Part shown: piece after piece, positions 33,370 through 53,332 of the stretch | Layout: each line of letters opens with the position of its first letter | How positions within the stretch are numbered: position 1 is the first letter of the stretch | Origin: an uncultured Chromatiaceae bacterium | GTDB lineage: Bacteria > Pseudomonadota > Gammaproteobacteria > Tenderiales > Tenderiaceae | Length of the DNA: 53,332 bases | Assembly: GCA_945787735.1 (NCBI GenBank) | Contig: CALZIQ010000008.1 | Location: forward strand, 1 to 53,332 | Direction of reading: 5' to 3' | Notes under the pieces: generated by a model | The model's database searches: none | What the model was told of the DNA's origin: nothing | Seen by the model: only the letters and a program-made list of their open reading frames with translations | Translations under genes and position numbers: made by a program

Positions 33370-35508
33370 ATGAGTATCGATATTAGCCAGTTTTTGGAAA
33401 CTTTCTATGAGGAAAGTTTTGAGGGGCTCGATACCATGGAGACAGAACTGCTAAGGCTTGTACCCGGTGAAGTGGATAGCGAATCCATCAACACCATTTT
33501 TCGTGCTGCACACTCCATCAAAGGCGGTAGCGGCACATTTGGCCTAATGGCGGTCGCCGATTTTACCCATGTATTGGAAACTCTGCTGGATGAAATGCGT
33601 GATGGACGCCGTTATGTAACACAGCAGGCAAAAGATCTGATGTTGGCATCGGTTGACGTACTACGCGATATGCTCAGTTGTCTGCGTAATGGTACCGAAA
33701 TCGATGCTGTACGGGTGGCTGAGGTGCATGGCCAACTTGAAGCTTTGTTTAAGGGAACACTGGAAGAGGCTGATCAAGTTGCTGAATCAGTATCTTTTCA
33801 GGAGGATTCAAACACGAGTGATTTACCAAAAACCACTCAAGAATCTGGCTGGATAATTCACTTCAAACCCTATTCGCATTTGTTCAAAACAGGTAATGAC
33901 CCAGTTCGCATTCTCAGGGAGCTGGCTGAGCTCGGCGAAATGCAGGCCGAAGCCTTGCTTGATGGGTTACCGGAATTTGATTTACTCGACCCGGAAGAGA
34001 GTTATTTTGCTTGGACAATAACGCTTGATGGGAATATCACCGAAGAGCAAATTAACGAGGTATTTGCCTGGGTTGATGATGATTGTGAACTGAAGATCGA
34101 AAAGGTTGAGACTGATTCAAATGCTATTGAGCCTGTTGCACTCCCGGAAACAATTGCGCTGGAAGAGATTCAGGTGGAGCCTATCCCAGTCAACAAGGTG
34201 TCTGAAACAGCAACGGCACCAGTAGAAAAGCCTCAAGTCCCTACGCTTGCCCCGAAACCTGCCGACACCAGTAGTGCGAATGCGGCTCGAAAGACACAAA
34301 GTACAGAATCTGGCTCGATCCGGGTCGGCATTGATAAGGTTGATGCCCTGATCAATATGGTCGGTGAGTTGGTGATCACCCAGTCTATGTTGAATCAACT
34401 CGGTGAGGATTTTTCCATGGAGCGAGTGCAGCGGCTGCAAGAAGGATTGGCAGAGCTGGAGCATCATACACGAGAGCTACAGGAAAATGTCATGCGCATT
34501 CGCATGCTTCCTATCAGCTTTTCGTTTAACCGCTTTCCCAGGTTGGTTCACGACTTGAGCAGCAAGCTGAATAAAAAGGTTGAATTGAAGATGTCGGGTG
34601 AGCAAACCGAGCTCGACAAAACTGTGATGGAAAAAATTGGTGATCCACTTATTCATCTGGTCCGAAACTCTTTGGATCATGGCATTGAATCTCCCGCCGA
34701 GAGAAAAGCAAACGGAAAGCCAGAGAAAGGCGTGCTTCATCTTAATGCCTACCATCAGGGCGGCAATATTGTTATTGAGATTCATGACGATGGCGCAGGC
34801 CTCGATACAGACAAGATATTAAAGAAGGCAATCGAGAAAGGCTTGGTGGGTGACAATGAAGAAATGTCAAAGGAAAAAATTCATGAACTAATTTTCGCGC
34901 CAGGTTTTTCAACTGCACAAGAGGTCAGTGACGTCTCGGGTCGCGGTGTTGGTATGGATGTAGTCAAACGCAACATCAAGGATTTGGGTGGTGTGGTGGA
35001 AGTGAGTTCGGAGCGGGGAGTGGGCTCCACCTTTACTATCCGTTTACCACTGACGCTCGCCATCTTAGACGGCCAGTTAGTCAAAATTGGTGATGAAACC
35101 TATGTGGTACCGTTGATATCAATTATCGAATCACTGCAGATCAAGGCCGAAAGCGTTAATTCAATCGCAGGCGGCGCAGAGCTTTATAAGTTACGTGAAG
35201 ACTATTTGCCAATCATCCGTATGCATGAAGTGTTTGATATCAAGTCCAATAACACCGAGTTGGTCAACGGGTTGTTAGTTGTGGTTGAGGGTGATGGTCA
35301 ACTTGCCGGAATTTTTGTTGATGATCTATTGGGGCAGCAGCAGGTGGTGATCAAGAGTCTCGAATCAAATTATCAGAAGGTGAATGGTTTATCCGGGGCG
35401 ACGATTTTGGGTGATGGTACGGTAGCACTAATTTTGGATGTTCCCGGTCTGATTGAACTTTCCAGGGAAAGAGTCAAGTCAATCACTGTTGAAACAGCAG
35501 TCGCCTAG
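33370..35508 (+). CDS. cheA: Chemotaxis histidine kinase CheA, second operon
   Basis: A 712-residue CheA. P1 contains His48 in FRAAHSIKGGSGTFG. A P2-like domain occupies about 160-245 (GWIIHFKPYSHLFKTGNDPVRIL). After a Pro/Ala/Glu linker (250-310), P3 begins VGIDKVDALINMVGELVITQSMLNQL. P4 has HLVRNSLDHGIESPAER, IEIHDDGAGLD, APGFSTAQEVSDVSGRGVGMDVV; P5 is CheW-like. Phosphate goes to CheY and CheB. It has a conventional P2 unlike the CheA at 52231. Length is normal. Confidence 0.95.
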   Translation: MSIDISQFLETFYEESFEGLDTMETELLRLVPGEVDSESINTIFRAAHSIKGGSGTFGLMAVADFTHVLETLLDEMRDGRRYVTQQAKDLMLASVDVLRDMLSCLRNGTEIDAVRVAEVHGQLEALFKGTLEEADQVAESVSFQEDSNTSDLPKTTQESGWIIHFKPYSHLFKTGNDPVRILRELAELGEMQAEALLDGLPEFDLLDPEESYFAWTITLDGNITEEQINEVFAWVDDDCELKIEKVETDSNAIEPVALPETIALEEIQVEPIPVNKVSETATAPVEKPQVPTLAPKPADTSSANAARKTQSTESGSIRVGIDKVDALINMVGELVITQSMLNQLGEDFSMERVQRLQEGLAELEHHTRELQENVMRIRMLPISFSFNRFPRLVHDLSSKLNKKVELKMSGEQTELDKTVMEKIGDPLIHLVRNSLDHGIESPAERKANGKPEKGVLHLNAYHQGGNIVIEIHDDGAGLDTDKILKKAIEKGLVGDNEEMSKEKIHELIFAPGFSTAQEVSDVSGRGVGMDVVKRNIKDLGGVVEVSSERGVGSTFTIRLPLTLAILDGQLVKIGDETYVVPLISIIESLQIKAESVNSIAGGAELYKLREDYLPIIRMHEVFDIKSNNTELVNGLLVVVEGDGQLAGIFVDDLLGQQQVVIKSLESNYQKVNGLSGATILGDGTVALILDVPGLIELSRERVKSITVETAVA

Positions 35509-40854: not shown

Positions 40855-41862
40855 ATGTCAGTCAACGATCTCTTATCACAAGACGAAATTGATGCGCTCC
40901 TCCACGGCGTAGATGGGGGTGACATTGAGCCCGAAGAAGATATCTTCGATGGTGAAGCAAAGTCATATGACTTCACCAGCCAGGATAGAATTGTCCGTGG
41001 GCGAATGCCTACCCTTGAAATGATCAATGAGCGCTTTGCCCGTTATTTTAGAACTAGCCTATTCAACATGCTGCGACGTTCGCCAGAGATCGCTGTTAGT
41101 GGTGTACAAATGCTTAAATTTGCTGAATATGTACACACCTTGTTTGTACCGACCAGTCTAAATCTCGTCAACATTCAACCATTACGTGGAACAGCATTAT
41201 TTGTGTTTGATCCAAAATTAGTCTTTATCTCGGTAGATAACTTCTTTGGTGGTAGCGGAAAATTTTATAACAAAATCGAAGGGCGTGAATTTACTAAGAC
41301 TGAAAATAGGGTCATTGAAATCATGTTGAAACAGGCATTTACAGATATGAAACAGGCCTGGGCTCCTGTCATGAATATGGATTTTGAGTATCAAAGCTCT
41401 GAAGTCAACCCGCATTTTGCCAATATCGTTAGCCCAACCGAAGTGGTAGTTATCAGCACTTTTCACATAGAGCTCGACGGCGGTGGTGGTGATATCCACG
41501 TCACCATTCCATATTCCATGCTCGAGCCAATTCGTGAATTGCTCGATGCCGGTACTATGAGTGATCGCAGCGAGGTGGATGAACGATGGACCAGCGCCTT
41601 GATAGAGGATGTCAAGTTGGCTGATATCGATTTGAAAAGCGTACTAACCGAAGTAGATGTTAGCCTCAAAGAAGTGCTCAATATGAAAAAGGGTGACATC
41701 ATTCCCTTCGATTTCCCCGAGACCGTCACACTGACAACCGAAGATGATGTGCCCGTGTATCGTGGAAAATTCGGCGTACACGAAAACTATAATGCCATTC
41801 GTATTACCGAGCCGGTCAAAATAAACCTTCCCGTAGTTTCCCAGGCAGGAGCTGAAAAATGA
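40855..41862 (+). CDS. fliM: Flagellar motor switch protein FliM
   Basis: A 335-residue C-ring protein. Residues 5-17 (LLSQDEIDALLHG) are the CheY-P docking peptide. The middle domain (about 50-225) includes GRMPTLEMINERFARYFRTSLFNMLRRSPEI and FFGGSGKFYNKIEGREFT; the C-terminal SpoA-like domain begins after residue 245. Binding of CheY-P here changes motor direction. Overlaps fliN by four bases. Confidence 0.97.
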   Translation: MSVNDLLSQDEIDALLHGVDGGDIEPEEDIFDGEAKSYDFTSQDRIVRGRMPTLEMINERFARYFRTSLFNMLRRSPEIAVSGVQMLKFAEYVHTLFVPTSLNLVNIQPLRGTALFVFDPKLVFISVDNFFGGSGKFYNKIEGREFTKTENRVIEIMLKQAFTDMKQAWAPVMNMDFEYQSSEVNPHFANIVSPTEVVVISTFHIELDGGGGDIHVTIPYSMLEPIRELLDAGTMSDRSEVDERWTSALIEDVKLADIDLKSVLTEVDVSLKEVLNMKKGDIIPFDFPETVTLTTEDDVPVYRGKFGVHENYNAIRITEPVKINLPVVSQAGAEK

Positions 41863-51028: not shown

Positions 51029-51424
51029 TTGGACAAGAACATGAAAATCCTGATTGTGGATGATTTTTCTACAATGCGTAGGATCATCAAGAATCTTTTA
51101 AGAGATTTGGGGTTTAGTAATACCCAAGAGGCAGATGATGGCAACACTGCTTTGCCAAAACTGCAAACGGGTGAGTTTGATTTCCTGGTAACTGACTGGA
51201 ATATGCCCGGCATGCAAGGGATTGATCTTCTCAAAGCGGTACGCGCCGACCCCAAATTGGCAAGCCTTCCTATTCTCATGGTTACAGCAGAAGCAAAGAA
51301 AGAGCAGATCGTTGAGGCAGCCCAGGCCGGCGTCAACGGTTACGTTGTTAAGCCTTTTACTGCAGCCACGCTAAAGGAAAAAATCGACAAGATTTTTGAG
51401 CGGATTGAAGCTAATCAGGGCTGA
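51029..51424 (+). CDS. cheY: Flagellar-type CheY
   Basis: A 131-residue response regulator very close to Pseudomonas Che[23 protein letters not shown], phosphoacceptor Asp in [52 protein letters not shown]. It binds FliM. The start is set at TTG 51029 because GGAGG at 51015-51019 is nine bases before it; ATG 51041 is an alternative. The in-frame extension to 50933 has no ribosome site and no conserved sequence. Confidence 0.96.
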
Positions 51425-51453: not shown

Positions 51454-52209
51454 ATGACTGAAAACGTGATTTGTAGTGATAAAGGCCTCGAGTTTGCAAA
51501 AAAACTGGTGGAGTGTATTGAGAAGGGCGATACAGAAGAAGCCACAAAAACACTGGAGGAACTTACCACGTTTCGGGAAAGCCCATTGTTTCAGGAGCTA
51601 GGCAAGCTGACCCGTGATTTGCATGACACCCTGATGGGGTTTCAGGTTGATTCCAAAATGGCATCAATGGCGCAAAATGATATTCCCGATGCCAAGGAGC
51701 GACTTAATCATGTCATCACAATGACTGAAGAGGCCGCCGACAAAACGCTTACTGCCGTGGAAAGTTCATTGTCATTAGCGGATGAGCTGAAGGAAAAGGC
51801 CTCAACACTTCAGGAAAACTGGGGCCGTTTTAGAAAGCGGGATATGGACGTGGATGAGTTTCGCTCTATGAGCGGAGAACTCGACGAGTTTTTCCAGTGG
51901 CTAAAAATCAATGGGCCTGAAATCAGCGCCAAGTTGTCAGATATTATGATGGCGCAGGGCTTTCAGGATCTGACCGGACAGATTATTCGCAGAGTCATCA
52001 TACTGGTTCAGGATGTTGAAGAAGGTCTGGTGGGCCTGATTCGAGTGTCCGGCCAAAATATGATGACGCAGTCGCAAGGAACGCAGAAGAAAGAAAAGGA
52101 CGGGCCGGATATCGAGGCGGTGGGCCCAGCAGTGCCAGGGGTCGACAAGGGTGACATCGTGTCAGGACAAGACGATGTTGATGACTTGTTATCCAGTCTT
52201 GGTTTCTGA
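51454..52209 (+). CDS. cheZ: CheY-P phosphatase CheZ
   Basis: A 251-residue CheZ. The active-site helix FQDLTGQIIRRVIILVQDVEE has Asp172 and Gln176 (equivalents of the catalytic residues), and the C-terminal VDDLLSSLGF is the CheY-docking tail. Heptad helices fill the middle. ATG 51454 is chosen over the TTG at 51430 because AGGGATTTAAGA precedes it. cheA follows at 21 bp. Confidence 0.95.
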   Translation: MTENVICSDKGLEFAKKLVECIEKGDTEEATKTLEELTTFRESPLFQELGKLTRDLHDTLMGFQVDSKMASMAQNDIPDAKERLNHVITMTEEAADKTLTAVESSLSLADELKEKASTLQENWGRFRKRDMDVDEFRSMSGELDEFFQWLKINGPEISAKLSDIMMAQGFQDLTGQIIRRVIILVQDVEEGLVGLIRVSGQNMMTQSQGTQKKEKDGPDIEAVGPAVPGVDKGDIVSGQDDVDDLLSSLGF

Positions 52210-52230: not shown

Positions 52231-53332
52231 ATGGCAATTGATCTGAATGACGAAATATTGCAGGACTTCCTGGTTGAAGCTGGAGAAATACTTGAACTGC
52301 TAGGTGAGCAGTTGGTAGAGCTTGAACGAACGCCTGAAGACCTGGATCTGTTAAATGCGGTATTCCGCGGTTTTCACACGGTCAAGGGTGGCGCGGGGTT
52401 TTTGAGTCTGAATGCGCTAGTTGAAGTCTGCCACCGGGCAGAAGATGTATTTAATTTGCTGCGCCAGGGTGAGCGGCAAGTCAATCCTCAATTGATGGAT
52501 GTGATCCTGCAGGTCACCGATGTGGTCAATGAGATGATGGATTGTATCCGTTCCGGTGAAGATCCAGCCGAGGCCGAACCAGCCTTGCTGCAAGCGCTCG
52601 AAGCGATCCTTAAGGATGAAGACGCGGGACAAGCACCAGCCGCCGAACCCGTGTTGGCACCTGAGCCGGTTGCTGAAGCTGAAGATGTTCCAGCAGCGGC
52701 AAAGGCGAGTTCATCAGATGAAGAAATTACAGAGGATGAATTCGAGGCATTGCTGGACGAGCTTCAGGGCAAGCCACAGGATCAGGGCGATGCGTCTGCT
52801 GCTGAGCCGGTGGCGGAGTCCTCTGCCAAACCCGGGGTTGATTCGGATGAAATCACTGAAGAAGAATTCGAGGCATTGCTTGACCAGTTGCAAGGCTCGG
52901 CTGCACCTGCAGATGATGCCTCCAAACCCGAGCAAGACGATGTCAAACCAGCTGCAGCTAAAAGTAGTTCAGATGAAATAACCGAGGATGAATTTGAAGC
53001 CTTGCTGGATGACCTTGATGCCAAGAAAAAGGATCAACCTGTCAAGCCAGCACCACAAGCTCAAGCGGCCAAGCCTGAACCTGTTTCTAAACCCAAGCCT
53101 GCCGCGGCTGCCAAACCAGCAAGCGAACCCGCAAAGGATAAACCTGCTGCACCCGCCAAGGCAGCAAAAGAAGCACCTGCGGCTGAGACCACTGTCAGGG
53201 TAGATACCAAGCGTCTCGATGACATCATGAACCTAGTAGGTGAATTGGTATTGGTGCGAAATCGCATGGCAACACTCAAATCCACCATGACAGCGGATGA
53301 AGAAGTTGCCAAGGCAATTGCCAACCTCGATC
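52231..53332 (+). CDS. cheA: Chemotaxis histidine kinase CheA, flagellar operon (partial, runs off right edge)
   Basis: The first 367 residues are present. P1 has His49 in FRGFHTVKGGAGFLS. No normal P2 domain follows; instead an acidic and then Ala/Pro/Lys-rich linker of about 200 residues contains three repeats of the form ITEDEFEALLDELQG, at 166, 208 and 250. P3 then begins at about 325 (VRVDTKRLDDIMNLVGELVLVRNRMATLKS). P4 and P5 are outside the window. ATG 52231 is preceded by CGGGGCG. The kinase serves the CheY and CheZ encoded upstream. Confidence 0.95.
   Translation, partial: MAIDLNDEILQDFLVEAGEILELLGEQLVELERTPEDLDLLNAVFRGFHTVKGGAGFLSLNALVEVCHRAEDVFNLLRQGERQVNPQLMDVILQVTDVVNEMMDCIRSGEDPAEAEPALLQALEAILKDEDAGQAPAAEPVLAPEPVAEAEDVPAAAKASSSDEEITEDEFEALLDELQGKPQDQGDASAAEPVAESSAKPGVDSDEITEEEFEALLDQLQGSAAPADDASKPEQDDVKPAAAKSSSDEITEDEFEALLDDLDAKKKDQPVKPAPQAQAAKPEPVSKPKPAAAAKPASEPAKDKPAAPAKAAKEAPAAETTVRVDTKRLDDIMNLVGELVLVRNRMATLKSTMTADEEVAKAIANLD
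52726..53022 (+). repeat. Three coding repeats in the CheA linker, exact 126-bp period
   Basis: The 15-residue units begin at 52726, 52852 and 52978: residues 166, 208 and 250, exactly 42 apart. The core DEFEALLD is identical or nearly so in all three, while the linkers between them differ. The core resembles FliM residues 6-17 (LSQDEIDALLHG) in this same window. Confidence 0.9.

Follow-up and report, generated by a model that had tools for sequence, protein, structure and literature searches.

The CheY-binding sequence of the motor protein FliM is LSQxEIDxLL (PMC5677366), and one face of CheY is common to FliM and CheZ (PMC3774744). More than half of all CheAs are without a P2 domain and have an unstructured region between the Hpt and dimerization domains (PMC10782961), which makes the quick recruitment of CheY by P2-less CheAs a question; the words motif, FliM, and ParP are absent from the text of that survey. 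In Vibrio, a part of CheA located between P1/P2 and P3, the CheA-LID, attaches to ParP through the AIF domain of the latter, and the LID is described as confined to species that have ParC and ParP (PMC5706961, PMC7534058). The CheA analyzed here is encoded at the end of a 53,332-nucleotide stretch of DNA (hereafter the window), and all features given below lie on its + strand.

The window CheA and its linker repeats

The window CheA has 708 amino acid residues; its gene starts at 52231, exits the end of the window, and is completed on contig C9 (121 bp overlap). The gene order at the locus is fliA-cheY-cheZ-cheA-cheB-(mot)-parC-parP-cheW, and the protein belongs to the F6 flagellar chemosensory class, a name that rests on the order of the genes and on how PMC7184735 describes F6. 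The N-terminal P1 (Hpt) domain (residues 1–127; 52231..52611) was identified by Pfam (Hpt, 2.2e-16) and modeled by AF2 with pLDDT >90. It is followed by an Ala/Pro/Lys-rich P1–P3 linker (residues 128–319; 52612..53187) that is predicted to be disordered and was modeled with low confidence outside the repeats described below. P3 starts in the last segment of the window (53188..53332), and P3–P5 carry on in contig C9.

The earlier note stated that this CheA has no recognizable P2, and our analyses agree with it: neither Pfam family for P2 or CheY binding (PF07194 and PF09078) matched the protein, the linker gave no match in the PDB, and the AF2 model, based on 60 orthologues, contained no P2 fold between P1 and P3. 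P2 was likewise missing among the 25 Pfam families listed for 30 orthologues, and no Pfam P2 was found in the example CheAs from Pseudomonas, Vibrio, and Shewanella. Two positive controls for P2 detection were used, namely, a CheA from Thermotogaceae (L190), in which PF07194 was detected at 4.4e-22, and the second, F7-like CheA of the window (33370..35508). In the latter, P2 (residues 160–245) was not found by Pfam but was evident by profile and fold; the profile search matched P1–P2 of E. coli CheA (2lp4, residues 1–221), a beta-alpha P2 fold was predicted at residues 160–245, and the best structural match was also 2lp4. Pfam silence as the sole proof of a missing P2 was dropped, as Pfam misses the P2 of this second CheA.

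The linker contains three near-identical repeats, all of the ITEDEFEALLDELQG type, which were located by sequence, AF2, and the FliM-core search described below: ITEDEFEALLDELQG (from residue 166; 52726..52770), ITEEEFEALLDQLQG (from residue 208; 52852..52896), and ITEDEFEALLDDLDA (from residue 250; 52978..53022). The only three helices in the AF2 model of the linker (residues 168–179, 210–222, and 252–267; block pLDDT 82–86) lie exactly on these repeats, which thus appear in the model as short helices in a disordered context, like peptides of the FliM/CheZ type. A profile of the CheA motif matched only these three repeats in the whole genome, and across the six frames of the window, the pattern [DE][IF][DE]ALL is confined to the repeats and FliM. 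The CheA of a Chromatiaceae relative from another assembly (L137) likewise has three copies.

The repeats are spaced by exactly 42 and 42 residues, as had been noted. In orthologues, however, the spacing ranges from 23 to 69 residues (median 41), so that the exact 42-residue period is due to chance and is not conserved; equal spacing was found in just 4 of the 66 CheAs with at least three copies. Given the unrelated spacers and the varying spacing, it was ruled out that the copies arose by a recent tandem duplication of constant period. At the DNA level, the 65-base copies are just 68–78% alike, and pairs of repeats, compared over 14 codons each, show 6–9 synonymous versus 2–3 non-synonymous differences, indicating that the repeats are old and held by protein-level selection.

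Conservation of the motif and its likeness to the FliM and CheZ peptides

CheAs of the same kind were collected from 143 genomes of the class and 80 named loci, where they sit in the gene order fliA-cheY-cheZ-cheA-cheB-parC-parP-cheW. CheAs of this kind with an intact linker carry the motif; 92 were counted, a number that leaves out a few contig-cut or split genes and one CheA with two copies missed by the linker finder (L054). Copy numbers ranged from one to eight and were most often three, which corrects the earlier statement that other gammaproteobacterial CheAs carry single motifs. Motif-bearing CheAs include those of Pseudomonas, Stutzerimonas, Vibrio, Photobacterium, Shewanella, Alteromonas, Marinobacter, Aeromonas, and Dyella; the motif was not found in any collected CheA of another kind. 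The consensus of 197 unique copies is [DE]-I-[TS]-[DE]-[DE]-E-F-[DE]-x-L-L-D-x-L-[HQ], with the E, the second L, and the D each present in 97–98% of them; the fuller form of the motif adds a G after [HQ]. Phe was required when these copies were collected, and a looser pattern also finds Phe almost always. The CheA at L081:6998-10201 (1068 residues) has eight repeats, and its linker also contains a long Ala/Pro/Lys array. The complete, single-contig genome G034 (L082) encodes a CheA with three repeats, CheY, CheZ, ParC, and ParP, and its cheB is split; no FliM or FliG was found in it, which makes this a flagellar-class chemosensory cluster without a flagellum, perhaps in decay.

The N-terminal CheY-binding peptide of the window's FliM, LSQDEIDALL (40873..40902), was assigned by the consensus LSQxEIDxLL and the FliM-core search. 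CheZ ends with QDDVDDLLSSLGF, the related sequence that had been pointed out, and its C-terminal peptide SGQDDVDDLLSSLGF (52162..52206), which the same search also retrieved, is of a known CheY-binding type. LSQDEIDALL occupies residues 7–16 of FliM; its match to the repeats holds, with the shared core at residues 10–16 rather than 8–14 as first given. We used LSQDEIDALL as the query, with BLOSUM62, against 34,166 ten-mers of the open frames of the window. After the query itself, the best scores belonged to the three CheA repeats (30, 30, and 26) and the CheZ C terminus SGQDDVDDLL (26), and the next score was 24. Because this query, which is blind to CheA, ranks the repeats and the CheZ C terminus next to FliM, the likeness proposed in the earlier note is supported and, judged by sequence, is not due to chance. 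The similarity of the repeats to the LSQxEIDxLL consensus is far beyond chance in this search, but the Q and I positions differ. In the reverse search with the CheA motif profile, FliM took fifth place among 33,866, preceded by the repeats and a stretch inside CheZ; with the 14-residue CheZ tail alone as the query, the repeats ranked just 25 to 125. In 90 of the 92 CheAs, the E-F motif surpasses every other stretch of the protein in its likeness to FliM, and the mean score was 28 versus 13–16 in six control protein families (ParP, CheB, CheW, ParC, MotB, and FliA).

These results point to the repeats being a short-linear-motif dock for CheY that replaces P2 and is possibly shared with ParP, and we give this reading a probability of about 0.6.

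CheAs from other lineages were also inspected. Campylobacterota CheAs without P2 (L176, L177, L181, and L200) have one or two linker copies of [ML]SxEEVEAEI[EQ]RLL, and in L177, L181, and L200 no other part of the CheA resembles FliM as closely. Betaproteobacterial CheAs (L182, L191, L203, and L215) have short P2-less linkers with a common PDWxxLHxAV-like motif that is not FliM-like.

Motif retention with and without ParP, and alternative partners

The earlier reading is partly supported. Its points on the missing P2 and the FliM/CheZ likeness stood up to tests that might have gone against them; the ParP-binding LID in the same linker region of Vibrio CheA and the downstream parC and parP were left out of account. 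The window CheA fits the LID by location; its repeats lie between P1/P2 and P3, and parC and parP are downstream in the cheA operon. The search for ParP used a profile built from 34 ParPs, and that for ParC used the window's own ParC protein. No ParP or ParC orthologue was found in ten genomes (G010, G001, G022, G025, G026, two of Dyella, and those of Allochromatium, Acidithiobacillus, and Hydrocarboniphaga), which gave only CheW-level and Soj-level matches, and in G111 and G056 ParC was present and ParP was not found by the profile search. The motif is kept in all twelve, with the HG tail in most, and is thus not confined to species with ParC and ParP. Some ParP-less genomes are drafts, a divergent ParP could escape the search, and Allochromatium has one ambiguous 222-residue match; each single absence of ParP is therefore uncertain, but it is unlikely that all ten are wrong. 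G012 was dropped from the ParP-less set for its divergent ParP (L110), which starts with MIPAAALDDYLDELL, has a CheW domain, and adjoins parC away from the cheA operon. Since ParP-less genomes keep the motif, ParP alone does not account for it, and ParP as the only partner was set aside as unlikely on these genome comparisons; ParP may use some of the copies. The ParP-less genomes have 2.0 copies per CheA versus 3.0 in those with ParP (p 0.0007, uncorrected for phylogeny) and motif scores of 38 versus 44 (p 0.0003, uncorrected for phylogeny).

A division of labor or competition, in which the copies generally bind CheY and one or more of them bind ParP where it is present, would reconcile the LID data with the retention of the motif without ParP and the extra copy in ParP-bearing genomes. 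No class of copies is regularly lost without ParP, however, and HG and non-HG forms both remain, leaving this arrangement a small chance. It is unlikely that the repeats are the CheA-LID or a part of it, with ParP-AIF as the partner, a tie to the polar ParC/ParP system, and no role for CheY. The place of the LID in the P1/P2–P3 linker and its reported restriction to ParC/ParP species (PMC7534058, PMC5706961) agree with that idea, as do the parC and parP genes downstream of the window cheA and the fewer, weaker copies in ParP-less genomes (p <0.001, uncorrected for phylogeny). It nevertheless leaves the FliM/CheZ likeness unexplained, and the motif persists, mostly with the HG tail, in the ten genomes for which the searches gave no orthologue of either ParP or ParC, as well as in the two with ParC and no ParP.

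Binding to another array partner (the receiver domain of CheB or CheV, or CheW) or to CheA itself in P1/P4 regulation is quite improbable in the light of the likeness specifically to two known CheY-binding peptides, even though P2 also docks CheB (PMC11978298) and the motif is present in every CheA of the class, which would call for a core component. Part of the FliM likeness is a generic helix-cap pattern common to Pfam SHOCT (PF09851); the gathering score of this family is not reached in the window CheA (25.5 versus 27 bits) and is exceeded in the CheA with eight repeats (L081). SHOCT matches in 25 of the 30 orthologues, at E values up to 1, would fit repeats that are a generic capped helix of the SHOCT type or a spacer without a specific partner. 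This is very improbable, as the match in the window CheA spans only part of the profile, and E-F-x-x-L-L-D hardly varies among the 197 unique copies, in contrast to the drifting spacers.

A putative CheY dock compared with known systems

The proposed ligand, the window's CheY (51029..51424), was identified by its Pfam receiver domain, and its probable start, judged from sequence, is a TTG behind GGAGG. It has Q94, V103, and K117, and among 99 CheYs beside the collected CheAs these residues occur in 88, 95, and 84, respectively. R92, Q94, V103, and K117 of CheY-F6 are reported to have become K, N, A, and E when such CheYs came under the P2-bearing CheA-F7 (PMC7184735); of these positions, 92, 94, and 103 point toward P2, whereas 117 is part of the helix that binds FliM. 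Such class-specific residues would be expected if the F6 CheA uses this face of CheY as well but docks it differently, although the association is one by descent and no proof. There is also a charge match between the acidic CheA motif and the basic K117, K119, and K122 of CheY.

If the repeats dock CheY, the P1–P3 linker would act as a flexible tether bearing three short docking helices, each most likely folding against the alpha4-beta5-alpha5 face of CheY in the manner of the FliM N terminus and the CheZ C terminus. Docking would concentrate CheY beside phosphorylated P1, which is the job of P2 in E. coli, and several weak sites per tether would provide a high local concentration, a raised on-rate, and fast release; some copies may additionally serve ParP. 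CheY binding, the face bound, and a hold on unphosphorylated CheY are what we infer for the repeats. FliM-type peptides prefer phosphorylated CheY, whereas a docking site on the phosphoryl donor should favor the unphosphorylated form, and this counts against CheY as the ligand. Phe instead of Ile or Val may tune the hold on unphosphorylated CheY. Going by the title of Guhaniyogi 2006 (cited in PMC11528121), the CheZ peptide has been crystallized with both forms of CheY, and such peptides can therefore hold the unphosphorylated form.

Neither the motif nor CheY binding by it was found described in a search of the open-access literature, and the motif profile gave no informative match in the PDB. 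In the best of the readings, a peptide grammar that is already known turns up at a new site and does the job of a folded domain. Such a dock would explain how the messenger is recruited by the kinase class of Vibrio, Pseudomonas, Shewanella, and many others, and because the flagellar CheAs of Vibrio, Pseudomonas, Shewanella, Alteromonas, and others have the FliM-like repeats, this can be tested directly with peptides. The motif further suggests that the kinase, the phosphatase, and the motor are rivals for a single face of CheY and share a common peptide grammar. More tentatively, and with the odds against it, P2-less CheAs might commonly dock CheY through lineage-specific, FliM-mimicking short linear motifs, E-F-x-x-L-L-D in gammaproteobacterial F6 and, independently, [ML]SxEEVEAEI in Campylobacterota.

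The FliM peptide and the repeats are both acidic, capped amphipathic helices (hydrophobic, S/T, x, x, E, hydrophobic, acidic, x, L, L) in a flexible context. However, the repeats are internal, multiple, and on the kinase, whereas the FliM peptide is on the motor, and with Phe in place of Ile, D/E in place of Q, and an extra D-x-L-H-G tail they are not the same motif. The CheZ C-terminal peptide (QDxVDDLLSSLGF) is likewise an acidic helix with L-L-x-x-L-G on a flexible tether; unlike the repeats, it is C-terminal and in single copy, and it has Val at the Phe position. With CheA P2 (PF07194 and PF09078; PDB 2lp4), the repeats share the position between P1 and P3 and the proposed job, but they have neither the P2 fold nor a sequence relation to it. 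The Vibrio CheA-LID (PMC5706961) occupies the same linker in the same class of CheA, in an operon with parC and parP; compared by described location, the two differ in that the LID is described as limited to ParC/ParP species and the motif is not. Finally, the window CheA is one of the P2-less CheAs (PMC10782961).
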